A stretch of DNA of 64,000 bases, taken from positions 1-64,000 of the forward strand of contig JAGXHW010000012.1 of NCBI GenBank assembly GCA_024635995.1, written 5' to 3'. Origin of the DNA: Clostridiaceae bacterium (GTDB lineage Bacteria > Bacillota > Clostridia > Peptostreptococcales > Tindalliaceae). Under the pieces are notes generated by a model. The model had not been told where the DNA came from and searched no databases. It saw only the letters and a program-made list of their open reading frames with translations. Shown here piece by piece: positions 31,923 through 52,911 of the stretch. Both the position numbers and the translations under genes were made by a program. Numbering within the stretch: the stretch's first letter is position 1; every line of letters begins with the position of its first letter.

Positions 31923-32919
31923 GTAGCTGCTCCTTCCTATCCATCTCTTTTATGGCAACCAGTAAGTTGTCCGGTGTCACAGGGATTGTTGTCATGCGGA
32001 CACCCACAGCGTCATAAATTGCATTGAGTACAGCTGGCGCCACTCCTAACATGACTGGTTCACCTATTCCCTTAGCCCCATAGGGCGCTGTCGATTCAGG
32101 TGATTCAATGATCATTTTTTCCAAGTCAGGAATGTCCATGGAAGTGGGAATTAAATAATTGGAAAATCGATCATGCTTTATTTTTCCTTCATTAAGGTTA
32201 ATGTCTTCCATTAATACATAGCCCAGTCCCATGGCAAAACCTCCATCCATCTGGCCTTCTATAAGTTTTGGGTTTACTGCCCTTCCGACGTCCTGTGCAC
32301 ATACTGCCTTAACGATGTTAACTTTTCCCGTGTCCGTATCCACTTCCACTTCGATGCCATATACATTGAAGGTATAAGGCCAATATGGATTCCCCTGACC
32401 AGTTTCATCGTCAAGCTGTGTGGTCATGGCAGTGAAGCTGTCTTCACCAGTTATTTTTAATTCTCCGGCCAATAATGCTACTTCCTTGAAACTAAGGGTT
32501 TTATTATGATCGTTTGTATGAAATACTTTACCACTATCAATCAGAATACGTTGAAAATCTTCTTCTTGCCAGTGTTTTGCTGCTAAGATTTTTATTTTAC
32601 GAATCAACGCCTCAGAAGTCCTCTTAACTGCGTTTCCTGTGTTATAGGTTTGTCTGCTGGCTGCTGCGGTGCCCGCATCCGGGGTTTCGTCGGTATTTTC
32701 ACATACAAAGTTAACTTCTACCATGGATAACCCTAACGCTTCAGCAGCGATTTGGCTTAGCACTGTTTTAGCTCCCTGCCCCACTTCAGTAGCACCAACA
32801 TAGACAGTTACAGCTCCATCTTTTTCAAGCTGGACCCTTGCTCTTGAAACATCCGGAAAACCATTACCATAACCTGTTCCGTAAAAGGTACAGCCGATTC
32901 CCTTGCCTCTTTTTTTCAT
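31912..32919 (-). CDS. Molybdenum hydroxylase, C-terminal half of split large subunit
   Basis: 335 aa matching the second half of the molybdopterin subunit of the xanthine dehydrogenase family. It begins IGCTFYGTGYGNG and carries the cofactor contacts EVGQGAKTVLSQIAAEALG and GTAAASRQTYNTGNAV, and the catalytic Glu in YGAKGIGEPVMLG. The N-terminal half is the preceding gene; they share an ATGA overlap, and the second start has its own GGGGGTG site. Together they total 758 residues, the length of the single-chain subunit. This split resembles nicotinate dehydrogenase NdhL/NdhM. Purine context favours xanthine, hypoxanthine or urate as substrate. Confidence 0.88.
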   Translation of the reverse strand: MKKRGKGIGCTFYGTGYGNGFPDVSRARVQLEKDGAVTVYVGATEVGQGAKTVLSQIAAEALGLSMVEVNFVCENTDETPDAGTAAASRQTYNTGNAVKRTSEALIRKIKILAAKHWQEEDFQRILIDSGKVFHTNDHNKTLSFKEVALLAGELKITGEDSFTAMTTQLDDETGQGNPYWPYTFNVYGIEVEVDTDTGKVNIVKAVCAQDVGRAVNPKLIEGQMDGGFAMGLGYVLMEDINLNEGKIKHDRFSNYLIPTSMDIPDLEKMIIESPESTAPYGAKGIGEPVMLGVAPAVLNAIYDAVGVRMTTIPVTPDNLLVAIKEMDRKEQLHGK

Positions 32920-34187
32920 TTTGTCACCCCCAAATCTACATCATAGGCCATGTTCATTTTTTCAGCCACGGCTTTGATGCACTCTTCCAGGGGGACACTT
33001 TCAGTGAGTTTTTGCCCTGTGGCAGTTGAAGATCCCACTTTAAAAATATTTTTCAGTCGAAACACAACTGGGTTCATTCCAAGCTTTTCCGCCAGCATGT
33101 CCATTTGCATCTCGTGGCCGATAGGCACTTGCGTAGCACCAAACCCTCTCATAGCACCTGCAAATGGATTGTTGGTGTAAAGGCTGTACCCGTTAATTTT
33201 CACATTGGGTATTTCATAGGGTCCGGTAGCATGAACACCTGCTTTTCGCAGTACATTGATGGCCCATGAGGCATAGGCTCCCGTGTCCGAAAAGATGGTT
33301 ACTTCTGTGGCCAATAATTTCCCATTTTTGTCAGCGCCGGTTTTAAATCGCATAGTCATTGCATGTCGCTTTGCATGAGCATAAAATGACTCTTCCCGAG
33401 AATACGTGGTTTTGACCGGCATTTTAAGCGTTTTAGCTGCCAAAGCCAGGTGAATTTGCATGGTGACATCTTCCCGGCCGCCAAAGGCTCCCCCAACGGC
33501 AGGATTGATCACTTTCACCTTGTCGACGGACATTTTCATGGCTTCAGCGATTTCAAGCTGATCAAAATGAGGGTATTGTGTCGCCGCACAAACCACCAAT
33601 TTTCCTCCACTTTCTTCATAAGCAATACCGGATTCAGGCTGCAAAAAAGCATGATCCACCATAGGTGTTCTGTATTCCTGTTCAACAATTATATGGCTTT
33701 GTCTAAAGCCTTCTTCAACATCACCTTTGTTCAGCTTAAAATGATAAACTAAATTGCCCTCTTCGTGAACCTTTGGTGCACCCGGTTGCATTGCCTCTTC
33801 AGGGTCGAAAACAGCTGGCAAATCCTCATAAGCCACCTCAATTTCCCTCACTGCTTTTTCAGCATTTTTTTCTGTGTCAGCAACAACAAAAGCCAAAGGA
33901 TCTCCAATACGTCTTACTTTGATGGCATTGAACACTTCATGGTCCTTAAATAAAACCCCATGAGCATTGTGAGGTACATCAACAGCCGTAAAGATCTTTA
34001 TGACCCCATCCATTTTTTCCGCTTTGGATTTGTCCAGGTTGAACAATGCGTGAGCATGGGTGGAACGAAGGGTCTTTCCATACACCATACCATCCATGCG
34101 AAGGTCTTCCGGGTACAACGCCTTTCCTGTTACCTTAGAATGTCCATCCACTCGAATTTCATTTTGTCCCACGACGCGCAGTGCCAC
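32916..34187 (-). CDS. Molybdenum hydroxylase, N-terminal half of split large subunit
   Basis: 423 aa starting with GTG (34187) behind AAAGGAGG. The sequence VDGHSKVTGKALYPEDLRM opens the aldehyde oxidase/xanthine dehydrogenase 'a/b hammerhead' domain (about 10-120). Cofactor-binding stretches include GAFGGREDVTMQIHLALAAK and GAMRGFGATQVPIGHEMQMD with the conserved Arg. It stops after DLGVTK, where the next gene begins in another frame. The start overlaps the iron-sulfur subunit gene by 29 nt. An open frame extending to 34454 lies over that gene and is not coding. Confidence 0.88.
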   Translation of the reverse strand: MALRVVGQNEIRVDGHSKVTGKALYPEDLRMDGMVYGKTLRSTHAHALFNLDKSKAEKMDGVIKIFTAVDVPHNAHGVLFKDHEVFNAIKVRRIGDPLAFVVADTEKNAEKAVREIEVAYEDLPAVFDPEEAMQPGAPKVHEEGNLVYHFKLNKGDVEEGFRQSHIIVEQEYRTPMVDHAFLQPESGIAYEESGGKLVVCAATQYPHFDQLEIAEAMKMSVDKVKVINPAVGGAFGGREDVTMQIHLALAAKTLKMPVKTTYSREESFYAHAKRHAMTMRFKTGADKNGKLLATEVTIFSDTGAYASWAINVLRKAGVHATGPYEIPNVKINGYSLYTNNPFAGAMRGFGATQVPIGHEMQMDMLAEKLGMNPVVFRLKNIFKVGSSTATGQKLTESVPLEECIKAVAEKMNMAYDVDLGVTK

Positions 34188-34668
34188 TGTCAGATTCCTC
34201 CTTTTCCAGTGTTTCTGCTGCTTTTTCAATTGCTTCAGCAATTTTGTTGTAACCTGTGCATCTGCACAGGTTACCTGATATCGATTCGCGAATATCATGT
34301 TTGCTGGGTGCAGGGTTTTTATCCAAGAGTGCTTTTGCAGACAACACCATGCCTGGAGTGCAAAAACCACATTGGATTGCACCCTCTTCAAGAAAAGCCT
34401 GTTGGATGGGATGCAGTGTACCATCCTCCCGGTCAAGGTTTTCGATGGTTTCAATTTTTTTGCCCTCAGCCTGGAATGCTAAAACAAGGCACGAATTGAC
34501 AACTTCTCCATCCATTAAAACCGAGCAGGCACCACATTCTCCTTCACCACAGCCTTCTTTAGTGCCTGTCAGATTAAGCGTGTTGCGGATCAAATCCAAT
34601 AGCCTCAGATCTTCCTCTATCTCAACCGTGTATTCTTTGTTGTTCACATTAAAAACTGCCTTTCTCAT
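34159..34668 (-). CDS. xdhC: Molybdenum hydroxylase, 2x[2Fe-2S] subunit
   Basis: 169 aa. A plant-type ferredoxin domain binds the first cluster through CGEGECGACSVLMDG and a distal Cys; the helical domain binds the second through CGFCTPGM and CRCTGY. These are the standard eight cysteines of the XdhC/NdhS/CoxS family. It passes electrons from the molybdenum centre to the FAD subunit. Overlaps the FAD subunit gene by 20 nt and the L-subunit start by 29 nt, showing tight translational coupling. Confidence 0.93.
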   Translation of the reverse strand: MRKAVFNVNNKEYTVEIEEDLRLLDLIRNTLNLTGTKEGCGEGECGACSVLMDGEVVNSCLVLAFQAEGKKIETIENLDREDGTLHPIQQAFLEEGAIQCGFCTPGMVLSAKALLDKNPAPSKHDIRESISGNLCRCTGYNKIAEAIEKAAETLEKEESDSGTARRGTK

Positions 34669-35548
34669 AAATCATCCTCCTCTCCATGTCTTCAAGAGCC
34701 TCATCCAGGGCTTGTTTAAACACACCCTGAACAGCATAACGCTTAAAATTCATTGTGCTTCTACCAGCTAGTCGTTTCATTGTGCTTTCTTCTAAAAACG
34801 CTGCCACTTCTGCAAATAAGCTGTTATTCAGGCACTTTCCTTTCATGAACCTTTCCACATCCCATTCCCGTTGTGCTTTAATACCTAAGGCACCACTGGC
34901 AATTCGTACGTTTTGACACATATCGTTTTCGTCCCATTCAACATAGACGGCCAAGGATAAACGGGCAATGGCCAGCGCATTTCTAACACCCAGTTTACTA
35001 AAGCCAAGCCCTTCGTTGGGGTTGAGTTTTTGAAACCTTATCTTTTCAAGAAGCTCGTTCGACTTCAGAAGTGTTTCCTCTTTTCCAGTTATGAATTCTG
35101 ATAATGGCAATACCCTGGTCTGTTGCTTACTCTTTAGGACCACCATGGCATCCATTGCCAGTAGAGGTGGCAGCATATCTGCAGCAGGTGAAGCATTACA
35201 AATATTGCCGCCAACAGTAGCGCGGTTTCTGATCTGTGGAGAACCAATAGATCTGGCTGCTTTGGCAATGGCAGATAAACTATGATTAAAAAATACATGT
35301 TTCTCAATGTCGGTAAAGGTGGCGGTACTTCCCAGTTCAATGGTGTTTTTTTCCTCTTTTATTTCTCTTATTTCAAGTATTGATGATATATCGATGAGTA
35401 CCGGAGGTGATACATTCCCTTCCCTCATTTGTATAATAAGATCAGTTCCTCCAGCTACTATTTTTGCCTCATCTTGATATTGATCTAGTAAATTGAGTAT
35501 TGAGTCTGTGTCCTTTGCCTGATACACATTTTGTACCAAATCTCTCAT
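34649..35548 (-). CDS. xdhB: Molybdenum hydroxylase, FAD subunit
   Basis: 299 aa of the CO dehydrogenase/xanthine dehydrogenase FAD family: AGGTDLIIQMREG and ATVGGNICNASPAADMLPPL are the two FAD pyrophosphate-binding loops, and the C-terminal cluster-facing domain follows. It accepts electrons from the iron-sulfur subunit and passes them to NAD(P) or ferredoxin. Gene order FAD, FeS, large-N, large-C is the F-S-L-M order known for clostridial nicotinate dehydrogenase. The gene starts 10 bp after the amidohydrolase stop. Confidence 0.93.
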   Translation of the reverse strand: MRDLVQNVYQAKDTDSILNLLDQYQDEAKIVAGGTDLIIQMREGNVSPPVLIDISSILEIREIKEEKNTIELGSTATFTDIEKHVFFNHSLSAIAKAARSIGSPQIRNRATVGGNICNASPAADMLPPLLAMDAMVVLKSKQQTRVLPLSEFITGKEETLLKSNELLEKIRFQKLNPNEGLGFSKLGVRNALAIARLSLAVYVEWDENDMCQNVRIASGALGIKAQREWDVERFMKGKCLNNSLFAEVAAFLEESTMKRLAGRSTMNFKRYAVQGVFKQALDEALEDMERRMIYEKGSF

Positions 35549-35557
35549 CCTTCCCTG

Positions 35558-36898
35558 TTACTTGATGACCCCGGCATTTATGATCTGCTCTTTTATTACT
35601 CGATTAGCATCCTTTAGCAGAGTGTCTTCATCAATGGTCGTCAGCGTACGGTTTTTCAGGACAACGTTGCCGTCAATGATGGTTGTGTGAACATCAGCTG
35701 ACGTTGCTGAATAAACCAACTGCGACACGATATCGCCAGCTTCCCATGGTGCAATGTGAGGAACAGCCAGGTTCACAAGTGCTATGTCTGCCAATTTTCC
35801 CACTTCCAGGCTGCCTAATTCATTTTCTTTACCCATGGCTTTCGCTCCGCCCAAGGTTGCCATTTCAAAAACAGTGGCTGCCGGCATGGTTGTAGGATTT
35901 AATAACCTGGCCTTCTGTATGAGTGCTGCATGACGCATTTCCCTGAACATATCCATGTTATTGTTGCATGGTGCTCCATCGGCAGCAAGCGATACCTGTG
36001 CGCCCATCTCCAACAGCTCAGGTATTTTTGCAATACCAGATGCCAGTTTCATATTACTCGAAGGGCAGTGTGCTATGTGAGTGCCTGTATCTGCCAATAT
36101 CTTCATTTCTTCGTCATCCAGCCAGATGCAGTGGGCCAACACAAGGTTTTCTCCAGTTAAACCAAGTTTATGCAGGTAATTGATGTTCCGCATGCCTCTG
36201 TCCTTCTGTACCAGTTCAATTTCACCCCGGTTTTCAGATGCGTGCGTGTGAACTTTCACGCCGTATTCAGAAGAAAGCTCCTTTACCCGCTTCAAAAGAT
36301 CGTCAGTGCAGGAAACCACAAAACGCGGTGCAAAAGCGTACTCAATGCGTCCATTGGCTGTACCATGCCATTTTTTCAGCAGCCTTACACTTTCTTCAAC
36401 GGATTCATGGGTATCTTCCATCAATGATGCTGGCACACCGTTACCATAATCCATCATGCATTTGCCGGAAATGGCACGATAACCTGTTTCCTGCAACGCT
36501 TCAAACGCTGCGTCTGTATGATGCACTGTTTCCATGTCAATGATTGATGTGGTGCCACCCCTTATTAATTCACCTATACCCAATTTTGCAGAGATATAGT
36601 TGGATTCTGCCGTGTGAGCACCCTCCAGCGGCCATACCCGCTTCTTTAGCCAGTCCAGCAATTCTAGATCATCCGCCTGACCCCGTAGCAGTGTTTGTGT
36701 TAAATGAATATGTGTTTGTATAAGCCCCGGAATCAAAACCAGTCCAGCAGCATCAATCACTTCGCAGTTCTCTGCCTTAATTTCAGGTGCTATGGATGAA
36801 ATACGATTTCCTTCAATTAACAGATCGCCTCTGAAAATATCTCGATTTCGATTCATTGTCACTAATTGTCCATTTTTTATCAACAGCCGTTTCATCAT
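35558..36898 (-). CDS. Amidohydrolase, guanine / 5'-deoxyadenosine deaminase type
   Basis: 446 aa of the TrzA/SsnA/MtaD amidohydrolase group. Metal ligands appear in IQTHIHLTQTLLRG, KVHTHASEN, LAHCIWL and the Asp of LAADGAPCNNNMDMF. The pattern ADDLELLDWLKKRVWP and the AHCPSSNMKLASG segment are shared by deoxyadenosine/SAH deaminases and by several guanine deaminases. In this purine operon, immediately upstream of the hydroxylase, guanine to xanthine is the most useful reaction. Aminoimidazole deaminase or an imidazolone hydrolase are other possibilities. AAAGGGG precedes the ATG. Confidence 0.8.
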   Translation of the reverse strand: MMKRLLIKNGQLVTMNRNRDIFRGDLLIEGNRISSIAPEIKAENCEVIDAAGLVLIPGLIQTHIHLTQTLLRGQADDLELLDWLKKRVWPLEGAHTAESNYISAKLGIGELIRGGTTSIIDMETVHHTDAAFEALQETGYRAISGKCMMDYGNGVPASLMEDTHESVEESVRLLKKWHGTANGRIEYAFAPRFVVSCTDDLLKRVKELSSEYGVKVHTHASENRGEIELVQKDRGMRNINYLHKLGLTGENLVLAHCIWLDDEEMKILADTGTHIAHCPSSNMKLASGIAKIPELLEMGAQVSLAADGAPCNNNMDMFREMRHAALIQKARLLNPTTMPAATVFEMATLGGAKAMGKENELGSLEVGKLADIALVNLAVPHIAPWEAGDIVSQLVYSATSADVHTTIIDGNVVLKNRTLTTIDEDTLLKDANRVIKEQIINAGVIK

Positions 36899-37059: not shown

Positions 37060-38370
37060 TTATCCCACGATGAATTTTAAAATAAACAGAATGGATAGGA
37101 CGACCATGATGATAGATACATCTTTCAATTTACCGGTCAATATTTTCAAGGCTGTGTAGGAAACCATACCGAACACTATTCCTTCTGCGATACTGTAGGT
37201 CAGAGGCATCATGATGATGGTCAGAAACGCAGGAATCGATTCAGTATAATCATCAAAGTTTATTTTCTTGATCGGTGTCATCATGAACAGTCCCACAAGT
37301 ACCAACGCAGGTGCTGTTGCTGCTCCAGGAATCATGATAAAGAGTGGTGAAAAAAGAAGAGCCACTACGAACATCCCTGCCGTTGACAGTGCTGTTAAAC
37401 CAGTACGGCCGCCTTCAGACACACCGGCAGCACTTTCAACATAGGTGGTAACAGTGCTTGTTCCAAGACAGGCACCAGCCGTTGTTCCTACAGCATCTGC
37501 AAAAAGAGCTTGTTTTGCCTTTGGCAGGTTGCCACTTTCATCCAACATGTCCGCTTTGTCAGCCACACCTACCAGTGTGCCAATGGTATCAAACATGTCG
37601 ACAAACAACAACGTAAAGAGAATGATCACCATGTCCAATGACAGAACCCTTGAAAAATCGAATTGAAAGAGAATCGGTGATAATGATGGGGGCGCAGAAA
37701 TAATGGATGTAGGGAGTTGTGTCAGTCCCAAGGGAATGCCAATAATTGTTGTAATAAAGATTCCGATAAGCAGCGCGCCCTTAATGCCTTTGGCTAGCAA
37801 AATACCTGTAATGATCAGACCAAGCAAAGCAATGATAGCGCCAGGGGAAGTCATATCGCCCAGAGCTACTGTTGTGGCCGGGTTAGCTACAATCACACCA
37901 GCGTTGCTAAAACCTATAAAGGCAATAAATAATCCAATACCCACTGAAACAGCGTGTTTAAGGTTCATGGGAATTGCCTTCACAATGGCTTCACGTACAT
38001 TCAGCAGGGTTAACGCAATAAAGATTAAACCTTCAATAAATACTGCGGCCAATGCCATCTGCCAGGAATATCCCATTCCCAGTACAATGGTATACGCAAA
38101 GAATGCATTTAATCCCATACCTGGGGCCAGCGCAAAAGGATAATTAGCATAAAAGGCCATGACCAGTGTTGCAATGATCGAAGAAACTGCCGTAGCGGTA
38201 AATACAGCACCAAAATCCATACCTGCATCTGATAAAATCAACGGGTTTACAATTAATATGTATGCCATTGTCATAAAGGTAGTGATTCCCGCCAGCACTT
38301 CAGTTTTTGTGTCAGTGTTATGCTCTTTCAGTTTAAATGTTTTTTCTAAAAATCCTTCATTTGTGCTCAC
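37060..38370 (-). CDS. NCS2-family purine permease (adenine/guanine/hypoxanthine type)
   Basis: 436 aa with about 12-14 membrane helices. The AzgA/PbuG subgroup is shown by GITTFMTMAYILIVNPLILSD, NYPFALAPGMGLNAFFAY, VDMFDTIGTLVGVADKA and GTSTVTTYVESAAGVSEGGRTGL. These carriers import adenine, guanine and hypoxanthine with protons. Its place between the two halves of the purine locus makes it the likely uptake system. GTG start, 7 nt after AAGGAGG. No purine riboswitch is visible upstream, since it follows the deaminase gene directly. Confidence 0.92.
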   Translation of the reverse strand: MSTNEGFLEKTFKLKEHNTDTKTEVLAGITTFMTMAYILIVNPLILSDAGMDFGAVFTATAVSSIIATLVMAFYANYPFALAPGMGLNAFFAYTIVLGMGYSWQMALAAVFIEGLIFIALTLLNVREAIVKAIPMNLKHAVSVGIGLFIAFIGFSNAGVIVANPATTVALGDMTSPGAIIALLGLIITGILLAKGIKGALLIGIFITTIIGIPLGLTQLPTSIISAPPSLSPILFQFDFSRVLSLDMVIILFTLLFVDMFDTIGTLVGVADKADMLDESGNLPKAKQALFADAVGTTAGACLGTSTVTTYVESAAGVSEGGRTGLTALSTAGMFVVALLFSPLFIMIPGAATAPALVLVGLFMMTPIKKINFDDYTESIPAFLTIIMMPLTYSIAEGIVFGMVSYTALKILTGKLKDVSIIMVVLSILFILKFIVG

Positions 38371-38400: not shown

Positions 38401-40212
38401 TTACTCCACCACTGGAGGTAAAATTGTGAAGTTGTTTACATCAACCAGACCCTGGTCTGTGATCTTCCACTTTGGACTGGTAGACAAGGCCAAAAACGAA
38501 AGATGCATAAACGGCGCATGCACTTTGCAGCCTAATTGATCTTTCACTGTTTTCTCCAATGAGGCAATCTTTTGACTGACTTCATGACCATTCAGTTCGT
38601 CGGTGATCAATCCTCCCACCGGTAAACGCATGTCATCAATCACCCTGCTGTTCTTCACTACTGCTATACCGCCCCCCATCTCAATCACATGATTCACTGC
38701 CATTACCATGTCTTTCAAACTTGTACCCACCACCATGATATTATGGGTATCATGGGCAACACTCTCAGCAAAAGCGCCCTGTTCAAGACCAAAGCCCTGA
38801 ACAAACGCTTTGCCGATACTTCCGTTTCGGCCATATCGTTCGATGCAAGCAATTTCAAGCACATCTTGCCTGACATCGGGAAGTACAACTCCTTGTTGTG
38901 CTCTTACAGTAAATTCAAGAGACTCAGATAAGTTCTGGTCAGGAATCAATCCGATGCAACGTACAGTTGCGTCCTGGCTTTCACTCCTGATGGCTAAGTC
39001 TTCTTCGATCAACGGTTTTCTCTTGACAGAATTTTTCACTGTCTCCGGATAAGTATATTCAGACAAGTCAATCAACAACTCTCCCTGGGAGGCTGCCAGT
39101 TTGCCCTCCAGAAAAACTGCCTCCACGGTCATTTCATTTAAATCATCAATCACAGCTATGTCAGCCAGCATGCCAGGTGATAGTACACCCCTGTCCTGAA
39201 AACCAAAATAAGTCGCCGGGTTAATGGTAACCATTTGGATTGCCACTGCCGGATCAATGCCTTCTGCAATGGTTCTTTTTACAATTTCATTCATATGTCC
39301 CAGTTTTTCCAGGTCTTCCGCAACCATATCATCCGTAGCAAGAATACAACGACGCGAGTCCAGTTTGTTTTCTGTTATCGCACGAATGCATTCGGCCATA
39401 TTACGCTGGGTTGATCCTTCTCTCATAAAAACATACACACCCTGCCGAAGTTTTTCCACACATTCTTCTTTTGTGGTGGTTTCATGGCAGGAACATATGC
39501 CGCCTGCTACAATAATATGTGCTGCCAACTCTGCCCCAAAAAGTTCCGGAGCATTACCATCAACTATTTTTCCGATGCTTCTGGCATAGGTTGAAGATGC
39601 CAGCAGGTCTGTTACAATGTCCGGTGTATTTCGGTAAACATGAGCAGCATTACTAAAACCCTGGAGCTCTCCAATACCAATTACGTTAGGATAATGCAAA
39701 ATTTCTTCCATATCCTTCGAACTGACATCGTAACCGGCTGTTTCCAAGCCTGGACAGTCTGGTGTCAGTGATGGCACTACAAGACTTACATGATTGGGAA
39801 CCAAACTGGCCTCTTCAGCCATGGCTTTCATGCCAACAGGGCCCAATGCATTTCCTATTTCATGGGGATCAGCAATCAGTGTCGTAGTACCCGAAGGAAT
39901 AGACAATCGTGAAAATTCTGTGATCGTCAACATGCTGCTTTCAAAATGCATATGTGAATCCATGAATCCCGGGGACAATGTCTTTCCTCTTACATCCACT
40001 GTAATGGTGTTTGGACCAATCAGAGAGGCTGTATCACCCACCAATAAGATATACTTGCCTTTAATAGCAATATCAGCATGGTATATCTCTGCTGTGAGCA
40101 CATTCACCACTTGTCCCCCATGCAATACAATGTCTGCATGGTCACGGTCCGACATTAACACATCAACCAACTGACGATATTCCATTGCCTGTTTCATCCA
40201 TTTAGCACTCAT
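38401..40212 (-). CDS. Divergent adenine deaminase paralogue encoded beside the shell genes
   Basis: 603 aa with the full Ade architecture: GFMDSHMHFESSM, IADPHEIGNA, the amidohydrolase barrel and the C-terminal domain with AHDTHNIMVVGTSLKDM. Three active-site stretches of Ade are changed: GLGEMMDYPG reads GIGELQGFSN, DGHGP reads DGNAP (His lost), and CTDD reads ATDD. So a different substrate is likely. Sitting directly after the BMC-P gene, it is a candidate for deaminating 4-aminoimidazole, or opening imidazolone. The ATG at 40212 follows AAAGGAGGG; a longer open frame to 40419 overlaps the BMC-P gene. Confidence 0.85.
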   Translation of the reverse strand: MSAKWMKQAMEYRQLVDVLMSDRDHADIVLHGGQVVNVLTAEIYHADIAIKGKYILLVGDTASLIGPNTITVDVRGKTLSPGFMDSHMHFESSMLTITEFSRLSIPSGTTTLIADPHEIGNALGPVGMKAMAEEASLVPNHVSLVVPSLTPDCPGLETAGYDVSSKDMEEILHYPNVIGIGELQGFSNAAHVYRNTPDIVTDLLASSTYARSIGKIVDGNAPELFGAELAAHIIVAGGICSCHETTTKEECVEKLRQGVYVFMREGSTQRNMAECIRAITENKLDSRRCILATDDMVAEDLEKLGHMNEIVKRTIAEGIDPAVAIQMVTINPATYFGFQDRGVLSPGMLADIAVIDDLNEMTVEAVFLEGKLAASQGELLIDLSEYTYPETVKNSVKRKPLIEEDLAIRSESQDATVRCIGLIPDQNLSESLEFTVRAQQGVVLPDVRQDVLEIACIERYGRNGSIGKAFVQGFGLEQGAFAESVAHDTHNIMVVGTSLKDMVMAVNHVIEMGGGIAVVKNSRVIDDMRLPVGGLITDELNGHEVSQKIASLEKTVKDQLGCKVHAPFMHLSFLALSTSPKWKITDQGLVDVNNFTILPPVVE

Positions 40213-40240
40213 CGATTTGTTTATTCCCTCCTTTCCATAA

Positions 40241-40513
40241 TCATTCTGCCACATCAATAGAATCAATAATTCCGACAATTGATGCATCAATAGGTGATTG
40301 CGGTTTGTTTGCTGCATGCCGTGACGCACTTCCTGTTGCATATAGCACGATTTCGCCAATACCAGCACCAACAGTATCGACAGCAACCAGTGGTTCACCT
40401 TTTGCTTGTCCATTAACATAGGGTTGCGTTAAAAGGAGTTTAAACCCGACAAGGCGTTCATCTTTTCGAGTTGCAGTGACTGTTCCAATAATTTTTCCAA
40501 TGCGCATATTCAT
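40241..40513 (-). CDS. BMC-P shell vertex protein (EutN/CcmL family)
   Basis: 90 aa, the full size of the pentameric vertex family. MRIGKIIGTVTATRKDERLVG, AVDTVGAGIGEIVLYATGSA and the closing VGIIDSI are family hallmarks. Pentamers cap the twelve vertices of a bacterial microcompartment. It is the only BMC-P gene in the window. The start may be at the first or second Met after GGGAGAG. Flanked by the flavoprotein-like gene and the divergent deaminase. Confidence 0.93.
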   Translation of the reverse strand: MNMRIGKIIGTVTATRKDERLVGFKLLLTQPYVNGQAKGEPLVAVDTVGAGIGEIVLYATGSASRHAANKPQSPIDASIVGIIDSIDVAE

Positions 40514-40534: not shown

Positions 40535-41320
40535 CTATTTCCAGTGAAATTGAATTCCACGGGCAACAGCGGTGTCTTTCGCCAAAGGCGTAACAATCGA
40601 TCCTTGCGGTATATTCAATACAGTTTCATTGACTGGTAATGATAAGATGTCTTTTTCAGTAATGATCTTTTTCACGACAACACCCGCATTACCACCATTA
40701 ACCATTGTATCAGGCCTGTTGTTATTCCCTCGTAATCCTTCTGTCATTAATTCAGTCGGTCGTACCATGTTTTTAACGCCCAGCTTCAATAACTGGGTTA
40801 TGGTTTCTTCCATAAATCGATTCAAATGAGTGTTTAACGTTGGTCTTCCATGGTACGTGCGAAGACTCTCCATGTCCATATAAACTGGGATACTGTCCCA
40901 AAGCGCCTGCCAAAGTAGATTTGGAATCAGACCATCCTGGATCCCCATGACCAACTTTCTAGCGGTATTATGTGTAATCATCGGCGCAATGACACATTTC
41001 AAATGTCCCATATTATACATCTTCAGCTGGTTCATGTCCCGTCCTATGATTTGCCTGGGTTTTAACTGACCCACAATTCTGTCAGCGTTCATCAATGCTT
41101 CTGCATTGGCAGAAAAAGCCAAATCGAAACACCAGCCTTCATTCTTCAACACTGTTAAATCTTGTAGTGTTTCGTCAAGACCAATGGGATTGCCTGCAAA
41201 CAAAACCAGCATCGAAGGACCCTTCAACGAGTTTATGCCCTGAACCTTTTCGCCAGGCAGACTGCCTATCTGAGCTGATAAATGAGCCAATATTTGCCGG
41301 GTCTGATTCGATTGATTCAT
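40535..41320 (-). CDS. Flavoprotein-like protein of the microcompartment locus
   Basis: 261 aa. LVLFAGNPIGLDETLQDLTVL opens a Rossmann-like fold, and CVIAPMITHNTARKLVMGIQD resembles the Asn-Thr cofactor loop (MITHNTAxK) of the flavoprotein/UbiX/phosphopantothenoylcysteine decarboxylase superfamily. The C-terminus (about 200-261) is a separate small domain (VLNIPQGSIVTPLAKDTAV). Similar proteins occur in other microcompartment loci, where the role is unclear; flavin delivery or reduction inside the shell is one idea. It might act with the UbiD enzyme, but a true UbiX is encoded separately. GGAGGG precedes the ATG. Confidence 0.6.
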   Translation of the reverse strand: MNQSNQTRQILAHLSAQIGSLPGEKVQGINSLKGPSMLVLFAGNPIGLDETLQDLTVLKNEGWCFDLAFSANAEALMNADRIVGQLKPRQIIGRDMNQLKMYNMGHLKCVIAPMITHNTARKLVMGIQDGLIPNLLWQALWDSIPVYMDMESLRTYHGRPTLNTHLNRFMEETITQLLKLGVKNMVRPTELMTEGLRGNNNRPDTMVNGGNAGVVVKKIITEKDILSLPVNETVLNIPQGSIVTPLAKDTAVARGIQFHWK

Positions 41321-41360: not shown

Positions 41361-41639
41361 TTACTCTGTTTTGTTTAAAATAACCCGCTCAACTTCCGCG
41401 TGAGGACGAGGTATGACATGTACAGAATGAAGTTCGCCTACTGCACGTGCTGCTTCAGCACCTGCGTCAGTGGCCGCTTTAACAGCTCCTACATCACCTC
41501 GAACCATTATTGTTACCAAACCAAAACCAATTTTTTCGTACCCTTCAATGGTAACACTTGCTGCTTTTACCATTGCATCCGCTGCTTCAATGGCACCTAC
41601 CAAACCTTTTGTTTCAATCAATCCTAATGCTTGACTCAT
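41361..41639 (-). CDS. BMC-H shell protein, PduA-like, with Phe at the pore
   Basis: 92 aa, one BMC domain. [37 protein letters not shown] and [12 protein letters not shown] are almost PduA. The pore loop is KIGFG, where PduA has KIGSG, so a Phe near residue 39 should narrow or gate the hexamer pore. AAGGAGG precedes the ATG. Confidence 0.95.
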
Positions 41640-41667: not shown

Positions 41668-42033
41668 CTATTTTTCTTTTGAACTCTTATCATGTGTTGA
41701 TGTTTTTGGTTTACTTTGTTTTTTGCCTGTGTTTGCAAACTTGTCCTTATTGAAGGATTGAATTAGTTTTTCCACTTCTTCATGGGGTCTTGGTATCACA
41801 TGGTACGATAAAATTCTGCCAGATTTTGATGCAGCCGCTACGCCTGCATCAACGCCCGCCTGCACAGCTGCCACCTCGCCTGCAATGTGAACCGTTACTG
41901 ATACAGCCTTGCCTGCACCGATGACTTTCTCAAACCCCACCAAGGTAACTTCTGCGGCTTTACAGGCTGCATCCACAGCTGCCATGGCTGCTGTTAAACC
42001 AATGGCTTCCATCAGTCCTACTGCTGATCTCAT
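41668..42033 (-). CDS. BMC-H shell protein with basic C-terminal tail
   Basis: 121 aa: a BMC domain of about 90 residues (AVGLMEAIGLTAAMAAVDAA, VIGAGKAVSVTV pore region, YHVIPRPHEEVEKLI) plus a 28-residue tail rich in Lys, Ser and Thr (NTGKKQSKPKTSTHDKSSKE). Tails of this type in shell proteins have been linked to cargo binding or positioning. The pore residue corresponding to PduA Ser40 is Ala. GGAGGTG precedes the ATG. Confidence 0.93.
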   Translation of the reverse strand: MRSAVGLMEAIGLTAAMAAVDAACKAAEVTLVGFEKVIGAGKAVSVTVHIAGEVAAVQAGVDAGVAAASKSGRILSYHVIPRPHEEVEKLIQSFNKDKFANTGKKQSKPKTSTHDKSSKEK

Positions 42034-42063: not shown

Positions 42064-42342
42064 TTATCTGGATGTATGCGCCAACTCAGACAGCGAAATC
42101 ATTCTACCTGTTGAATCACTGACTGATGTATTTTTACATTCAACTTTAGTTGATGTCACCAATGGCTTGTCCGGATAAAGATTATTTCTTAAGTGAATCA
42201 AATCGATGAGCATTTGCTCTTCCTGTGGGTTAACATTCACCGGGGTCTTGACATGATTCACCGTGTTATGTTCCTGATCAACATTTTGTCCCGCTTTTTC
42301 TGCCAAGTTCTTTAGCATTTGCTGAGCGAGTTGGTTTGCCAT
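42064..42342 (-). CDS. Small microcompartment-associated protein with helical N-terminus
   Basis: 92 aa, unrecognised. Residues 2-19 (ANQLAQQMLKNLAEKAGQ) form a likely amphipathic helix. A Val/Asn/Pro linker of about 20 residues follows, then a second helix (PQEEQMLIDLIHLRNNLYPD) and a Ser/Thr-rich tail. The helix-plus-linker layout is that of encapsulation peptides, which bind cargo to shell hexamers, but no enzyme domain follows. A scaffold or adaptor is possible. It lies between two BMC-H genes with its own AAAGGTGG site. Confidence 0.6.
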   Translation of the reverse strand: MANQLAQQMLKNLAEKAGQNVDQEHNTVNHVKTPVNVNPQEEQMLIDLIHLRNNLYPDKPLVTSTKVECKNTSVSDSTGRMISLSELAHTSR

Positions 42343-42355
42343 GATTTCACCACCT

Positions 42356-42619
42356 TTATTCCATTAACGCTTCCAGCTCTTCGTGAGGCCTTGCAATGAC
42401 ATTAACAGCTATGATTTCCGCCAGTTTTTCCGCTTCAAGACGTCCATGATCCACAGCAGCCTGAACAGCGGCAACCTCACCTTCGATAATGACTGCAACA
42501 ATACCTGAGCCTACATAATTGAAATCAATAATTTTAACATTAGCTGATTTCACCATGGTATCAGCGGCCTGTATCGCAGCTACCAGGCTTCTTGTTTCAA
42601 TAAATCCAATTGCTTGCAT
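42356..42619 (-). CDS. BMC-H shell protein with canonical pore
   Basis: 87 aa BMC domain: QAIGFIETRSLVAAIQAAD, pore loop VGSGIVAVI, GEVAAVQAAVDHGRLEAE and VIARPHEELEALME. The pore Ser (residue 38) is the common residue, unlike the two other BMC-H proteins here. It is the first shell gene after the UbiD gene, 18 bp downstream. Confidence 0.95.
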   Translation of the reverse strand: MQAIGFIETRSLVAAIQAADTMVKSANVKIIDFNYVGSGIVAVIIEGEVAAVQAAVDHGRLEAEKLAEIIAVNVIARPHEELEALME

Positions 42620-42637: not shown

Positions 42638-43996
42638 TTACTTTTTATCTTCCTTAGGAAAATACCGATCGATTTTTACTGTTTCATATCCCGGGATCAC
42701 TGCTTTGTAAAACTTCTCTCCCTGTTCTCCTGTGGGTCTTGTCGCATCCAGACCCATTTTGTCCGTTATCCCCCGCAAACCATTAGAGGGGTCAAGTACT
42801 GAACCCACAGCACCCGGTATTATCACCAGGTCCTGCCCAGCCTGGAAACGAGTGGCAATGGCCCATTCCACCGCATCTTGACTGTATATATCCACATCAT
42901 CATCAACAATGACCACATGCTTCAAATCCTTATTATTTCCAAGAGCTGTTATGATGGCACTTTTCGCCTGTCCCGGTGACTTTTGTCTAATGGATGCCAC
43001 AGCGTGGAACCTGCATCCCCCTGACACAGTTACATTCACATCTACAACATCCACAATATTTTTCAGGGCACCATATAACTCCATTTCCCTGATCAATCCG
43101 TTTGATAAATGTTCCTCTCTACAGGGAAATGCTACCTGAAAGATAGGATTGTTGCGGTGCATAACAGCTTTTATCTCTGCAATGGGATGGGGTCCCACAC
43201 CTCCATAATAGCCCATCAATTCGCCAAAAGGTCCTTCTATTTTCCGCTTGTGAGGCGGCATAATGCCCTCAAGTACAATTTCGGCATAAGCAGGCACTTC
43301 CAGGTCAACACTGGTACATTTCACCAGTTCAAGTGGTTCTCCTCGCAGAGCGCTGTCAACTTCATATTTATCAACCCCATAAATAGCGCTGCTTATTTGG
43401 GATGCCAGCAGCAGACTATGGTCATAACCCAACACCACAGCGATTTCGAGTGGTTTGTTCAGTTCTTCCATCTCGCTGTATTGCTGCTGAGCCAGCGGTG
43501 AAGCTGCCAATACACTGATTTCATTTCCACCATTGATTTGAAGGCGTCTCACGGATATATGTGTCTTTTCAGTCTTTGGGTCCTTCAAAACAACTATTCC
43601 TGACGTTATATAGGTTGAAGAATCCAATTCATGAAATTTAGGAATGGGAAACATACGCTGCAAATCAATACGGCTTGTGATAATGTTTTCAGTGACAGGT
43701 CCTTTTTTTAAGCGTTTTGTCGGTTGAGGATTCGCCACTGCCGCCATCATCTTAAACAACCTGTCTTCTTTCGTCATATCCATGATGTCGTAATAGATTT
43801 CCCGGTCACCAAAGAGTGCTCCTGCCACTGGCATCCGGTAGCCTTTCACTTTTTCAAATAAAACAGGCACTTCATTTTTATAATGTTTTAGCACTGCTCC
43901 CAGTTCATACACAGGGTCAACTTCAACATGACATGTTTTAAGGTTTCCTTTGTTTTTTAGAGCGTTAAGCGTTGCCCGGAGCATTTGTTTTTCCAC
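42638..43996 (-). CDS. UbiD-family decarboxylase, proposed aminoimidazolecarboxylate decarboxylase
   Basis: 452 aa of the UbiD family, which uses prenylated FMN to decarboxylate aromatic or unsaturated acids. Landmarks are RMPVAGALFGDR, ITSGIVVLKDP, EIVLEGIMPPHKRKIEGPFG (the E-G-P-F-G cofactor region) and VVIVDDDVDIYSQDAVEWAI. In the classical clostridial xanthine route 4-amino-5-imidazolecarboxylate loses CO2 to give 4-aminoimidazole; this enzyme fits that step. It is encoded just before the shell genes, so it is the most likely cargo. GTG start with AAGGAGGG at good spacing. A possible promoter lies 50 bp upstream. Confidence 0.85.
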   Translation of the reverse strand: MEKQMLRATLNALKNKGNLKTCHVEVDPVYELGAVLKHYKNEVPVLFEKVKGYRMPVAGALFGDREIYYDIMDMTKEDRLFKMMAAVANPQPTKRLKKGPVTENIITSRIDLQRMFPIPKFHELDSSTYITSGIVVLKDPKTEKTHISVRRLQINGGNEISVLAASPLAQQQYSEMEELNKPLEIAVVLGYDHSLLLASQISSAIYGVDKYEVDSALRGEPLELVKCTSVDLEVPAYAEIVLEGIMPPHKRKIEGPFGELMGYYGGVGPHPIAEIKAVMHRNNPIFQVAFPCREEHLSNGLIREMELYGALKNIVDVVDVNVTVSGGCRFHAVASIRQKSPGQAKSAIITALGNNKDLKHVVIVDDDVDIYSQDAVEWAIATRFQAGQDLVIIPGAVGSVLDPSNGLRGITDKMGLDATRPTGEQGEKFYKAVIPGYETVKIDRYFPKEDKK

Positions 43997-44091: not shown

Positions 44092-44649
44092 TCACACTGT
44101 ACCCCAAGGTTTAAAAAGTTGATGGTCAATACCAAATTGATCCAGTGAGCGGCCTACCATAATCGAAATAATATCTTCCATGGTTTCAGGATGATGATAA
44201 AACCCTGGTGATGCAGGCATAATGATAACGCCCATTTTTGCCAGTTTCAACATGTTCTCAAGGTGTATGACACTCAGAGGTGTTTCTCTGGCGACCATCA
44301 CCAATTTTCTTTTTTCTTTGATGACTACATCTGCAGCACGGGTCAGTAAATTATCTGATACGCCATTGGCTACCGCAGCAAGTGTTCGCATAGAACTTGG
44401 AATAATGATCATTCCGTCTGTCTTAAAAGATCCGCTGGAAATAGGTGCGGCAAGGTCTTTATTGTTGTGGGTAACAGAGGCTAAATCACTTAACTCTTCC
44501 AGGTTCATGCCACATTCATGCTGCACAACATATTCTCCCATGGTAGAGACCACTAAGTGGGTCTCAATGTTAAGTTGTTTCAATACCTGCAAGAGTGCAA
44601 CACCATAGATGGCGCAACTTCCTCCTGATACCCCTACAATGATTTTCAT
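44092..44649 (-). CDS. ubiX: UbiX-type flavin prenyltransferase
   Basis: 185 aa, full length. KIIVGVSGGSCAIYGVALLQ is the FMN-binding start; SGSFKTDGMIIIPSSMRTLAA and VMVARETPLSVIHLENMLKL contain the flavin and dimethylallyl-phosphate contacts. UbiX makes prenylated FMN, the obligatory cofactor of UbiD enzymes, and here it lies directly before the UbiD gene. The Met at 44649 is used; the longer frame has no ribosome site. Confidence 0.92.
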   Translation of the reverse strand: MKIIVGVSGGSCAIYGVALLQVLKQLNIETHLVVSTMGEYVVQHECGMNLEELSDLASVTHNNKDLAAPISSGSFKTDGMIIIPSSMRTLAAVANGVSDNLLTRAADVVIKEKRKLVMVARETPLSVIHLENMLKLAKMGVIIMPASPGFYHHPETMEDIISIMVGRSLDQFGIDHQLFKPWGTV

Positions 44650-44685
44650 AGTGCCACCTCTTCCCTCATGCATGGTGTGAAAATC

Positions 44686-44749: not shown

Positions 44750-45352
44750 CTATTCTACTTTATTTTCCGCGTCGCCGCCACCCAACCAAGGGTCTTCGCC
44801 TTTTTCCCAGGCATCGATATATTCATCAAGGGACATGACCTTCGTAAAAATGCTGAGGTCAACCAAACCATGTTCGTGCATGGCCTGGGTTTTTGAAGCG
44901 CAACCATCACTAAGGGTTATGACTTTATAGGCATTGGCCAGGGCGTCGGTGGCAGTGCTTCTTACACAAACGTTAGTCCAAACACCTGTGACGACCACTG
45001 TGTCAATGTTTTCCTCTTTTAAATAAAGGTCCAGGTCTGTGTGAGCAAATCCACTGTGTCTTCTCTTTTTAATAACGTATTCGTCACCCTCTGGATATAA
45101 TTCAGGGATAAAATCTGAACCCCACGTACCTTCAACGGCATGTCTGGGACGAACCCTGAAATCTGCATCATGCTTTCGGTGAGCTTCCTGGATGTGCACT
45201 AAATGAATGTCATCATCCTCACGTTCGCGCACCCATTTAAACAATTTCTGTAGGGGCTCAATGATGTCATCTCCACCTGGGCATCGTAGTGAAGCTTTTT
45301 CTCCAATAAAGTCATTCAACATATCAATCACTAAAATCGCATGTTTTGGCAT
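44750..45352 (-). CDS. Isochorismatase-family amidohydrolase, proposed ureidoimidazolecarboxylate hydrolase
   Basis: 200 aa cysteine hydrolase. The Asp-Lys-Cys triad is visible: Asp10 in ILVIDMLNDF, Lys near 95 in EYVIKKRRHSGF and Cys129 in TGVWTNVCVRSTATDA. The family includes N-carbamoylsarcosine amidase, ureidoacrylate hydrolase and nicotinamidase, so hydrolysis of a ureido group is natural. In the xanthine route, 4-ureido-5-imidazolecarboxylate is cleaved to aminoimidazolecarboxylate, CO2 and NH3. Position between the ring-opening hydantoinase and the decarboxylase supports this. AAGGAGGAG precedes the ATG. Confidence 0.8.
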   Translation of the reverse strand: MPKHAILVIDMLNDFIGEKASLRCPGGDDIIEPLQKLFKWVREREDDDIHLVHIQEAHRKHDADFRVRPRHAVEGTWGSDFIPELYPEGDEYVIKKRRHSGFAHTDLDLYLKEENIDTVVVTGVWTNVCVRSTATDALANAYKVITLSDGCASKTQAMHEHGLVDLSIFTKVMSLDEYIDAWEKGEDPWLGGGDAENKVE

Positions 45353-45412: not shown

Positions 45413-46861
45413 TTATGATCGAAAGTCCACACCTGTAAAAGTAATGGTTCGGTCAAGTTTTTGGATGCTTTGACGCTTAACAAACTCTCCGAATCCAGGC
45501 TGGCCAATAACACCTTTTTCATCATCGTACACTACCGTGCCACGAACAACGGTTTTAACAGGCTTGCCTTTCAATTTTATGCCGTGAAGCGGGTTGTATT
45601 TGGCCATGGAGTAGGTTTTCTTTTGATCGATAGTCCATTCTTTGTCCAAATCAATGATGGTAAAGTCAGCATCTGAACCAATGTGCATTGCACCTTTTTT
45701 TGGATACAGACCATACTGTTTTGCAGCGTTGGTACTTAACACTTCAACCATTCGGCTTAGTGAAATTCGGCCTTTGTTGTAACCTTCACTTACCATAATA
45801 GGCACCAGGGTTTCAACTCCGGGAATACCCGGAAAGGCAGTCCAAATGTCAAGTTCAAGGTCGCCCACTTTGCCTTCTTTTTCAGTGGCGATTTCATAAG
45901 GTGCATGGTCTGTACCCATAAAATCAACACTTCCATTTCGAAGCCCTTCCCACAGTACTTCATTGTCTTTTTTTGTTCTTAATGGTGGTGCAATCTTGGC
46001 AAATTGTTTGTGTTCAGTCATTGCATCCTGATAGTTAAGCATCAGGTAATGAGGGCAAGTTTCAGCGGTAACGTCCAAGCCTTTCTTTTTCGCCTCTCCA
46101 ACAAGTTTTGCACCAATACCCGTGCTCATGTGTACAATGTGTAAACGGGCGCCCGTTTCCTCTGCAAAACTGATTCCCAACTGGATGGCAGCTTTCTCTG
46201 CCAATTCCAATCTGGCTTCGGCCCATGCCGGGCCATCCGTACGACCTTCAGCTTCAAACTTCTTAACATAATAGTCGCACATTGCATAATTCTCAGCATG
46301 AATACCCACAACCAACCCTGTTTTTGCAACTAGTTTAAAAGCTTCCAGCATTTCAGGGTCCGTGACTCTTTCATAGGTTGGCACAGATGGTGTCATATAA
46401 ACCTTAAAAGCGCACACACCGTAATCAGCCTGTTCTTGGACAATGTCATACTTTCCTGCACGAATGTCTTCACCGGTGACGCCACCCCAGAAAGCAAAGT
46501 CAATCACAGCTTTGTCCTTGATTTTATTTAATTTGCTTTCCAGCTCAGGAATACTTCTCACAGATGGTTTTGAACAACAAGGCATGTCCATAATGGTGGT
46601 TAGTCCACCGGCTGCTGCAGATTGGGTGCCTGTTAAAAAGTTTTCTCTGTGCTCAAACCCGGGGTCCATGAAATGGGTGTGAGAGTCAAAGCAACCGGGA
46701 ATGGTTAAGTTCCCCTTGGCATCGATTTCATTGGCATATTCAATACCATCCAGTTCAGTCACAAAACCAGCCACTTTTTCATCCTTCACAAGAATGTTTG
46801 TTAATACCATGTCATCTCCCTGAGGAATTCGTGCGTTCTTAACAACAACATCTACTTTCAT
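45413..46861 (-). CDS. Cyclic amidohydrolase (AllB/dihydropyrimidinase family), proposed xanthine amidohydrolase
   Basis: 482 aa. Binuclear metal ligands are in CFDSHTHFMDPG, the carboxylated Lys in AFKVYMTPS, VGIHAEN, IVHMSTG and MGTDHAPYE. By sequence alone it would be called allantoinase or dihydroorotase. No urate oxidase or allantoate hydrolase lies nearby, and the genes around it continue from an opened xanthine ring, so hydrolysis of xanthine to 4-ureido-5-imidazolecarboxylate is the better guess. AGGAGGAG precedes the ATG. A TATAAT hexamer (minus, 46884-46879) could mark an internal promoter. Confidence 0.83.
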   Translation of the reverse strand: MKVDVVVKNARIPQGDDMVLTNILVKDEKVAGFVTELDGIEYANEIDAKGNLTIPGCFDSHTHFMDPGFEHRENFLTGTQSAAAGGLTTIMDMPCCSKPSVRSIPELESKLNKIKDKAVIDFAFWGGVTGEDIRAGKYDIVQEQADYGVCAFKVYMTPSVPTYERVTDPEMLEAFKLVAKTGLVVGIHAENYAMCDYYVKKFEAEGRTDGPAWAEARLELAEKAAIQLGISFAEETGARLHIVHMSTGIGAKLVGEAKKKGLDVTAETCPHYLMLNYQDAMTEHKQFAKIAPPLRTKKDNEVLWEGLRNGSVDFMGTDHAPYEIATEKEGKVGDLELDIWTAFPGIPGVETLVPIMVSEGYNKGRISLSRMVEVLSTNAAKQYGLYPKKGAMHIGSDADFTIIDLDKEWTIDQKKTYSMAKYNPLHGIKLKGKPVKTVVRGTVVYDDEKGVIGQPGFGEFVKRQSIQKLDRTITFTGVDFRS

Positions 46862-46939: not shown

Positions 46940-47848
46940 TTATTTCATCAGGTGTGTTTCAAGAATTTGTTCTTTCCTGAATCCTTCCAGTCCCAGGAAA
47001 AATTCAAGCGAATTTAATAAGTGATCCAGTTTTACAGGTCCTACAATTTCTGACCCTGTGACAGCCACCCCATACCTTGCAGCCTCTTGTTTTACAAAAT
47101 TAAATGTTCTGTACAAAGGCGTTACACTGCAGTCAAACATATTCATAGAGACAACAACACCAGCATGTTCAGGAAATTTGATACCTACCGCACGGACAGT
47201 TGAAAATCCGCCACTAGGTCCCCGCACGCCTTTTGCAATGGTTTTAGCAATAGACACATCTTCTGTTGCCAAAAACACATTGTAAGCTGTCAACCCTTCA
47301 ACATCGGCACTCACAATAGTGGCTCCAGCCGTTGCATGTAAAGCAGCGGGACCAAGGTCAGGTTTTCTTTCATCAGTGTGAGCAACCTCTTTAAGACCTT
47401 CGTATTGCCCTTTTCGAATAAATGACAAGGACTTGCGGTCTTCATTCCTGGCATTTTCACCAGAAAAAAAGACAGGCACATCATAGCGATCGTATACTTC
47501 TTGTCCGATTTCTTCTGCCATGGTGACACATTCTTCCAATGTGATATTCTTAAAGGGAAATAGAGGAATGGTATCTTGAGCACCAATGCGTGGGTGACTT
47601 CCCTGTTGTTCTTCCATGTTGATGAGTTCGTAACTCTTACCAGCCATTTCCAGCAGCGCTTCCTTTAAGGGAGCAGGTTCGCCAATCACAGTGATGACCG
47701 TTCGATTAAAATCGTGCTCTGGTTCAACACTTACCAACATAATACCCTCTTTGTTTTTAAGGGTACCCGCCACTGCTTCGATTACCTCTTTTCTTCTACC
47801 GTCACTAAAATTTGGAACAGCTAACACATATTGTTTTTCAATAGACAT
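46940..47848 (-). CDS. Formiminotransferase (glutamate/glycine formiminotransferase family)
   Basis: 302 aa of the FTCD N-terminal family: LAVPNFSDGRRKEVIEAVAG, DFNRTVITVIG and SHPRIGAQDTIPLFPFKN with the catalytic His. It transfers a formimino group to tetrahydrofolate. In histidine degradation the donor is formiminoglutamate; in xanthine fermentation it is formiminoglycine, giving glycine. No hut genes are present and the operon is purine-related, so formiminoglycine is favoured. The ATG at 47848 lies 7 nt after AAGGAGG; an upstream TTG is too close. The cyclodeaminase partner is encoded separately at 14.1 kb. Confidence 0.87.
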   Translation of the reverse strand: MSIEKQYVLAVPNFSDGRRKEVIEAVAGTLKNKEGIMLVSVEPEHDFNRTVITVIGEPAPLKEALLEMAGKSYELINMEEQQGSHPRIGAQDTIPLFPFKNITLEECVTMAEEIGQEVYDRYDVPVFFSGENARNEDRKSLSFIRKGQYEGLKEVAHTDERKPDLGPAALHATAGATIVSADVEGLTAYNVFLATEDVSIAKTIAKGVRGPSGGFSTVRAVGIKFPEHAGVVVSMNMFDCSVTPLYRTFNFVKQEAARYGVAVTGSEIVGPVKLDHLLNSLEFFLGLEGFRKEQILETHLMK

Positions 47849-48197
47849 CAAACCGCCTCCTTCTTTTATACCTTTTATGCTTATTACTATTTTTCAACAG
47901 ATTCAGAAAAATTCCTTTATTAATTATTTACAAATTTTGTGGTGTAATAATCAGTGTTAACGTTATCATTTTGTAATTAACTTACATAATTTTGCTGTTT
48001 AGCCATGTCTGACAGAAACAATGATATGCTTAGATTCATGATTTCATGCTGGGTCTCACTATATAACGCAAAATTTCATTCATACATCACAGCCTCTGGC
48101 TGTGGTTTCGTCTTAGTTGTACTTTTATTTTCCTCCGTGTATACTGTTTGTAAGCAGCGCTTATCAGAAAAACCGATTATTCCAAGGAGGTATAACA
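47849..48197. promoter_or_regulatory. Divergent control region of the purine locus
   Basis: 349 bp between the formiminotransferase (minus) and the cyclase-family gene (plus). On the plus strand TTGTAC (48117-48122), 17 bp and TATACT (48140-48145) form a plausible promoter, and a TAAGC-AGC-GCTTA palindrome (48151-48163) covers the start site. A hairpin CACAGCC-TCT-GGCTGTG lies at 48088-48104. No clear promoter is seen for the minus strand. PucR, encoded at 48.9 kb, is the obvious candidate regulator. Confidence 0.5.
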
Positions 48198-52714: not shown

Positions 52715-52911
52715 AACCATCCTCCTGAACTTATTTTTTTATATTATGAAGCTACCATATTCTCAACACAAACTCAAGAAGAAACTAAATTCCATCTTAC
52801 TTGTACAACTATTATTGTTTAGATATAATCATTTTTGTAAGTTGCTTTTTTGATAGATATTAAGATTTGCAGATCGTTTATTAACTTTTGCTGTAGGAAG
52901 AAGGTGAAACC

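Follow-up and report, generated by a model that had tools for sequence, protein, structure and literature searches.

An Ade-family protein encoded beside BUF1/Xau shell genes as the probable 4-aminoimidazole deaminase of anaerobic xanthine degradation

Background

The closest described system to the locus analysed here is the BUF1/Xau cluster, which Ravcheev et al. 2019 proposed for xanthine degradation, with step 5 assigned to Amet_4572 and the opening of the imidazolone ring to Amet_4584 (PMC6620236). The published tags comprise UbiD (Amet_4581), an isochorismatase (Amet_4583), a hydantoinase (Amet_4584), FtcD (Amet_4586) and xanthine dehydrogenase (Amet_4569-68), and an adenine deaminase is nowhere named in the main text (PMC6620236). 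According to PMC12507026, the genes of the xanthinase pathway were recognised as a cluster in Clostridia and Bacilli by Tong et al. 2023; the citing paper also puts the kcat of xanthinase at 0.1 per second and reports glycine as the end product of the hydrolytic route. Contrary to the notion of an unassigned pathway, proposed gene assignments thus already exist. The abstract of Tong et al. 2023 reportedly lists four hydrolases, drawn from different families, together with a prenyl-FMN decarboxylase. Since the cluster was identified in 2023, it is probable that a function for the protein that we call AdeX has been published. The papers citing that study gave no gene-level detail, and none of the texts searched named a gene for a 4-aminoimidazole deaminase.

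Ade hydrolytically deaminates an aromatic amine, and the characterised enzymes of its family are deaminases (PMC12133300). We analysed a member of this family, AdeX, which very probably deaminates 4-aminoimidazole in the anaerobic xanthine (xanthinase) pathway and is encoded together with BUF1/Xau shell proteins. The observations behind this reading are gene content, orthology, fixed residue changes and patterns of co-occurrence and loss; the substrate, reaction and metal number of AdeX are predictions, as is its location inside the shell, which is deduced from linkage only.

Gene organisation of the locus

The window is the whole stretch of DNA that was analysed, 64,000 nucleotides long. From 48.9 kb down to 30.2 kb it carries a locus in which every gene except the first lies on the minus strand. 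This first gene encodes a cyclase-family hydrolase (48117..48890, plus strand; PF04199), the predicted 4-imidazolone hydrolase. It is followed by FtcD (46940..47851; TIGR02024 above cut-off, PF07837 and PF02971), the predicted glycine formiminotransferase, by a hydantoinase/allantoinase-like amidohydrolase (45413..46861; allantoinase and dihydropyrimidinase models), the predicted xanthine amidohydrolase or xanthinase, and by an isochorismatase-fold amidohydrolase (44750..45352; PF00857), the predicted 4-ureido-5-imidazolecarboxylate hydrolase. Further along lie the UbiX flavin prenyltransferase (44092..44673; TIGR00421 above cut-off) and a UbiD-family protein (42638..43996; TIGR00148 above cut-off), predicted to be the 4-amino-5-imidazolecarboxylate decarboxylase.

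The shell is represented by three BMC-H genes matching PF00936, BMC-H 3 (42356..42619), BMC-H 2 (41668..42033) and BMC-H 1 (41361..41639), the last encoding the most conserved protein of the cluster, and by a BMC-V pentamer protein of the EutN/CcmL type (40241..40513; PF03319, 111.9 bits). Beyond the gene of AdeX (38401..40212) are found a purine/xanthine permease (37060..38370; PF00860), an SsnA/TRZ-ATZ-like amidohydrolase that we read as accessory (35558..36898; NF005557 above cut-off), the subunits of xanthine dehydrogenase (31912..35548; XdhA/XdhB models, Fer2/Fer2_2) and, finally, the canonical adenine deaminase (30195..31922). The xanthine dehydrogenase consists of a Mo subunit (ORFs 31912-32919 and 32916-34454), an FeS subunit (34159-34668) and an FAD subunit (34649-35548). 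FchA, a formimino-THF cyclodeaminase / methenyl-THF cyclohydrolase that would serve the downstream C1 step, is encoded apart from these genes (14126..14752, minus strand; PF04961, NF045657 below cut-off).

Both the gene order and the gene set are shared with BUF1/Xau (Amet_4568-4587): BMC-H and BMC-V genes are clustered with those for UbiD, isochorismatase, hydantoinase-like protein, FtcD and permease. Among the cluster proteins scanned, which form a subset of the ORFs, no aldehyde dehydrogenase was seen. The genome G130, whose gene order matches, is taken to be Alkaliphilus metalliredigens QYMF. Counting genes from the published tags of A. metalliredigens, AdeX corresponds to Amet_4574 and the SsnA-like protein to Amet_4572. 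By this count, AdeX is not the ortholog of Amet_4572, the XauE of PMC6620236.

Several other genes of the window were noted. The two overlapping ORFs of the Mo subunit (31912-34454) also occur in A. metalliredigens, and a single ORF is present in Romboutsia (L050). YqeC, a selenium cofactor protein (29397-30158, minus strand), adjoins the purine genes, which points to a selenium-dependent xanthine dehydrogenase. A divergent phosphoenolpyruvate carboxykinase-like protein with weak family scores is encoded at 51035-52720 (minus strand). Between AdeX and the BMC-H genes, a fast-evolving, weakly flavoprotein-like protein of 261 aa (40535..41320, minus strand; weak TIGR02536/AfpA matches) occupies the same slot in most clostridial loci. 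The slot at 42064..42342 (minus strand), between BMC-H genes, is filled likewise in more than 50 loci by a small protein with no Pfam match. Its N-terminal helix carries a conserved motif, which reads M-A/V-N-P-L-A-R-x-I-M-x-N in Clostridia and M-S-E-F-M-R-x-I-V-Q-E-V in Bacilli, and its tail is of low complexity. We take it as a candidate cargo scaffold, since it resembles a protein for encapsulation or scaffolding in shells of the BUF1/Xau type.

The AdeX protein and its active site

The ORF containing AdeX is open over 38401-40419 (minus strand) and shares sequence in its upstream part with the EutN/CcmL shell gene. The start was set at the Met encoded at 40212 because the orthologs start there, giving a protein of 603 aa. 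It carries the amidohydrolase and adenine deaminase C-terminal domains expected of an Ade (PF01979 and PF13382) and scores 478.1 bits against TIGR01178, just above the equivalog cut-off of 472.5 bits, which at least 25 of the 34 AdeX proteins scanned pass; the canonical Ade of the window reaches 643 bits. This distal Ade (575 aa) is 36% identical to AdeX, and the two are the only full-length Ade-family genes of the assembly, which is about 75% complete. A previous sequence-only reading had pointed out two Ade-family genes in one locus differing at corresponding motifs, and we could confirm this, with both genes on the minus strand. AdeX displays DSHMHFES (H87, H89), IADPHE, GIGELQGFSN, DGNAP and LATDD, and the distal Ade GLGEMMDYPG, DGHGP and FCTDD.

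In YerA, the metal ligands are His87, His89, Glu179, His210, His231 and Asp283 (PMC12133300). The residues aligned with them in AdeX are H87, H89, E182, N220, H243 and D294. AdeX therefore departs from the six-residue binuclear site (H, H, E, strand-5 H, strand-6 H, D): the HxH pair, the bridging Glu, the strand-6 His and the catalytic Asp are retained, and the strand-5 His is replaced by Asn. The column of the strand-5 ligand contains Asn in 103/103 AdeX and in 0/69 other family members, which have His (65) or Cys (4). The earlier statement that the metal core is preserved must accordingly be amended, as the change from DGH to DGN alters one ligand (His210 of YerA) while five of the six stay. 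Since Asn220 stands in place of the strand-5 His ligand of Ade, the second metal site of AdeX is probably altered or absent.

Other positions distinguish AdeX as well. Its Q184, D152, Q269 and H570 stand at columns that in most Ade are occupied by Met, Ala, Ala and Thr, respectively. In the alignment of 103 AdeX and 69 other sequences, Q184, N220, D152 and Q269 are each fixed in the former and rare or absent in the latter, so that the motif changes first noticed in a single protein are not due to chance; H570 and T578 are fixed as well. T578 aligns, as read by eye, with His554 of YerA, a substrate contact in a docking model (PMC12133300). Extra residues follow strand 4, and the substrate Arg264 is conserved along with Asp294. 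We also checked proven adenine deaminases for the same changes: E. coli AdeD and A. tumefaciens Atu4426 keep His at the position of N220, Met at that of Q184 and Cys at that of A292.

According to the predicted structures, AdeX has the fold of Ade and matches 3nqb with a TM of 0.87-0.89, in a comparison that left out E. coli AdeD. N220 comes directly after strand 5 in both AlphaFold models, residue positions being derived from alignments and secondary structure. Taken together, the changes would suit a smaller, more polar substrate and perhaps a single metal.

AdeX as a separate branch of the family

Among 148 genomes of the order, 36 AdeX orthologs were detected at 71-100% identity, the next match reaching 41% or less. 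In a tree of 114 sequences, built with a quick method and showing long branches, all 55 AdeX lie on one side of a single branch (SH-aLRT 100, length 1.12), which separates them from E. coli AdeD, from the Ade encoded in the same loci and from the other branches. Where hosts are named, they belong to Clostridia or Bacilli, apart from one Synergistales genome and two Deltaproteobacteria MAGs. Distances between UbiD proteins and between AdeX proteins are correlated (r = 0.93), which fits joint inheritance, although common ancestry alone raises such values. Fixed residues, phylogeny and linkage led us to reject a plain duplicate of Ade.

In another clade of the family, DPHE is replaced by GLDE and HDSHN by PDDNN, and the strand-5 residue is Cys. 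It was found in Clostridium acidurici (L149, at about 0.54 Mb) and in L122, L123 and L124, and stands in tandem with Ade in some genomes.

Conservation and loss of the neighbouring genes

UbiD, UbiX, EutN and BMC-H genes accompany AdeX in all 61 loci with full flanks, so that its linkage to the decarboxylase that would make its predicted substrate is constant. In the same 61 loci, the xanthinase candidate and the ureidohydrolase candidate were each detected 56 times, the cyclase 52 times and the SsnA-like gene 35 times. A cyclase ortholog (62% or more) was recovered in 9 of 10 genomes searched, including 6/6 picked for having no cyclase in the locus. The SsnA-like gene, which encodes the single alternative candidate for the deaminase, behaves otherwise. 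Of 18 AdeX genomes lacking a linked copy, two have an ortholog outside the AdeX locus, and 16, several of them draft assemblies, have none genome-wide (best match 39% or less), and on this ground we reject the SsnA-like protein as the deaminase.

The absences reported here are weakened by the draft state of genomes. In four genomes (L077, L089, L097 and L098), no ortholog of the hydantoinase-like gene (best match 31-36%) or of the isochorismatase-like gene (27-41%) was detected, the two being lost together, and UbiX, UbiD, the shell, AdeX, the cyclase and FtcD are retained. The hydantoinase-like protein is disfavoured as the imidazolone hydrolase by these four genomes, which keep the downstream core without it. 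Thermosyntropha lipolytica encodes the hydantoinase-like and isochorismatase-like proteins and UbiD on one contig, and AdeX beside the cyclase on another; a search for the BMC domain found none in this genome and was positive in control genomes. An AdeX-cyclase pair with no shell genes nearby was also found in L153. We saw no encapsulation peptide that would set shell-linked AdeX apart, the N-terminal helix being the same in shell-linked and shell-free copies. FtcD, FchA and the formate-THF ligase Fhs are grouped in L097, and glycine-cleavage genes come after the core in L092.

Some loci are composed differently. In L089 and L098, the AdeX/UbiD/shell core is accompanied by an AbgT-family transporter and an M20 hydrolase in genomes without a xanthinase or ureidohydrolase ortholog, and the input substrate may not be xanthine. 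In Bacilli (L100, L106 and others), the cyclase directly follows AdeX and is itself followed by DUF1989 and an M20 hydrolase in place of FtcD, which suggests that these clusters finish formiminoglycine in another way.

Assignment of the pathway steps

The natural splits and losses of the pathway indicate that AdeX and the cyclase form a pair placed after the decarboxylase. PF04199 enzymes, kynurenine formamidase and isatin hydrolase among them, act hydrolytically on amides and lactams. Two steps remain to be shared between the two proteins, deamination and the opening of 4-imidazolone, and as PF04199 enzymes open lactams, deamination would fall to AdeX. In the resulting scheme, xanthine would be opened by the hydantoinase-like enzyme and the ureido group taken off by the isochorismatase-like enzyme. 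UbiD, with prenyl-FMN supplied by UbiX, would decarboxylate 4-amino-5-imidazolecarboxylate, and AdeX would hydrolyse the amino group of 4-aminoimidazole at its metal site. The cyclase would then open 4-imidazolone to formiminoglycine, from which FtcD would move the formimino group to tetrahydrofolate, leaving glycine. The sequence-only reading had proposed a new substrate created by pocket changes beside an intact metal core. Its non-adenine substrate holds up, 4-aminoimidazole being the compound that, by a wide margin, suits the conserved neighbourhood best, and the intact core does not.

A broader proposal is that AdeX, having lost a metal ligand that Ade otherwise keeps, uses a reshaped centre, possibly with one metal, to act on a five-membered ring, and that the core of AdeX, UbiD, cyclase and shell is a general unit for aminoimidazole processing whose inputs go beyond xanthine. 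Its second part is suggested by the loci with AbgT and M20 genes, which keep the core without the xanthine-opening enzymes, and we regard the whole as a tentative idea with somewhat the worse of the odds.

The roles of the last two hydrolytic steps could also be exchanged, AdeX opening 4-imidazolone and the SsnA-like or the cyclase protein deaminating 4-aminoimidazole. Amidohydrolases such as HutI do open imidazolones. In the 2019 scheme, deamination was the task of the SsnA-like gene (PMC6620236). We nevertheless consider this improbable, given the absence of that gene from 16 of the 18 genomes checked, the fit of PF04199 chemistry to imidazolone opening and the deaminase activity of the characterised Ade-family enzymes.

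It is more improbable still that the AdeX step precedes decarboxylation or that AdeX has a related compound (such as 4-amino-5-imidazolecarboxylate or aminoimidazole carboxamide) as its substrate: the AbgT transporter and M20 hydrolase that join the same core in some loci would allow the true substrate to vary, but the group-specific residues are fixed in all locus types. Classical work on these clostridia by Rabinowitz and Pricer reportedly placed deamination after decarboxylation, which also speaks against this reading. The route is outlined in PMC12507026.

C. acidurici does not use adenine, and its genome paper reported no candidates for the genes of the middle pathway steps (PMC3519856). 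In the genome of strain 9a (G209), the Ade-family matches number three and lie at 0.54, 1.03 and 3.04 Mb. Two of them are AdeX (72% and 69%): the match at 3.04 Mb lies in a complete shell cluster, and that at 1.03 Mb is shell-free. The match at 0.54 Mb belongs to the clade with Cys at strand 5, and none of the three is a canonical Ade. By position, we infer that they are the annotated adenine deaminase tags, and mislabelling of AdeX would explain why an organism with three annotated adenine deaminases leaves adenine unused. Gottschalkia purinilytica, for its part, grows on adenine (PMC4582583). In G217, possibly this species, two AdeX were found and no other Ade-family match or PF00962 deaminase. 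Because G217 may use adenine with AdeX only, AdeX could have some adenine activity.

That AdeX is a second ordinary adenine deaminase passing hypoxanthine to xanthine dehydrogenase is highly unlikely: fold and domain architecture, a score just above the Ade cut-off and the case of G217 speak for it, but every AdeX has Asn at the strand-5 metal His kept by E. coli AdeD and Atu4426, C. acidurici does not grow on adenine with two AdeX, and the locus already contains a canonical Ade while AdeX is tied to UbiD and the shell genes.

With AdeX read as the 4-aminoimidazole deaminase, three consequences follow. AdeX proteins passing the Ade cut-off carry in these genomes an "adenine deaminase" label when they most likely serve xanthine fermentation. 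The assignment of steps 5 and 6 would aid metabolic models of purine-degrading and purine-lowering bacteria. Lastly, the His-to-Asn swap at a metal ligand would offer a simple mutational handle on metal number versus substrate in the superfamily.

Comparison with known systems

The 2019 scheme for BUF1/Xau places Amet_4572 at step 5 and Amet_4584 at ring opening, whereas the patterns described here favour AdeX and the cyclase. Our gene set fits the enzyme list that the abstract of Tong et al. 2023 reportedly gives. AdeX resembles Ade/AdeD (COG1001; Atu4426, PDB 3NQB and 3T81; E. coli AdeD) in fold, two-domain architecture, HxH pair, bridging Glu, strand-6 His, catalytic Asp, substrate Arg and the DPHE and HDxHN motifs, and differs from them by Asn220 at the strand-5 His, by Q184, D152, Q269 and H570, and by the extra residues past strand 4. 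YerA and Bh0637, which are N6-methyladenine (N6-methyladenosine) deaminases, form like AdeX an Ade-family branch with a changed substrate, and YerA keeps the strand-5 His210 and is devoid of the third metal site of Atu4426 (PMC12133300). AdeX, unlike YerA, has no strand-5 His, and it retains the DPHE and HDxHN motifs. To these systems the present analysis adds a group-wide loss of a metal ligand, a correction of the 2019 gene assignment, an explanation for C. acidurici and the natural splits of the pathway.
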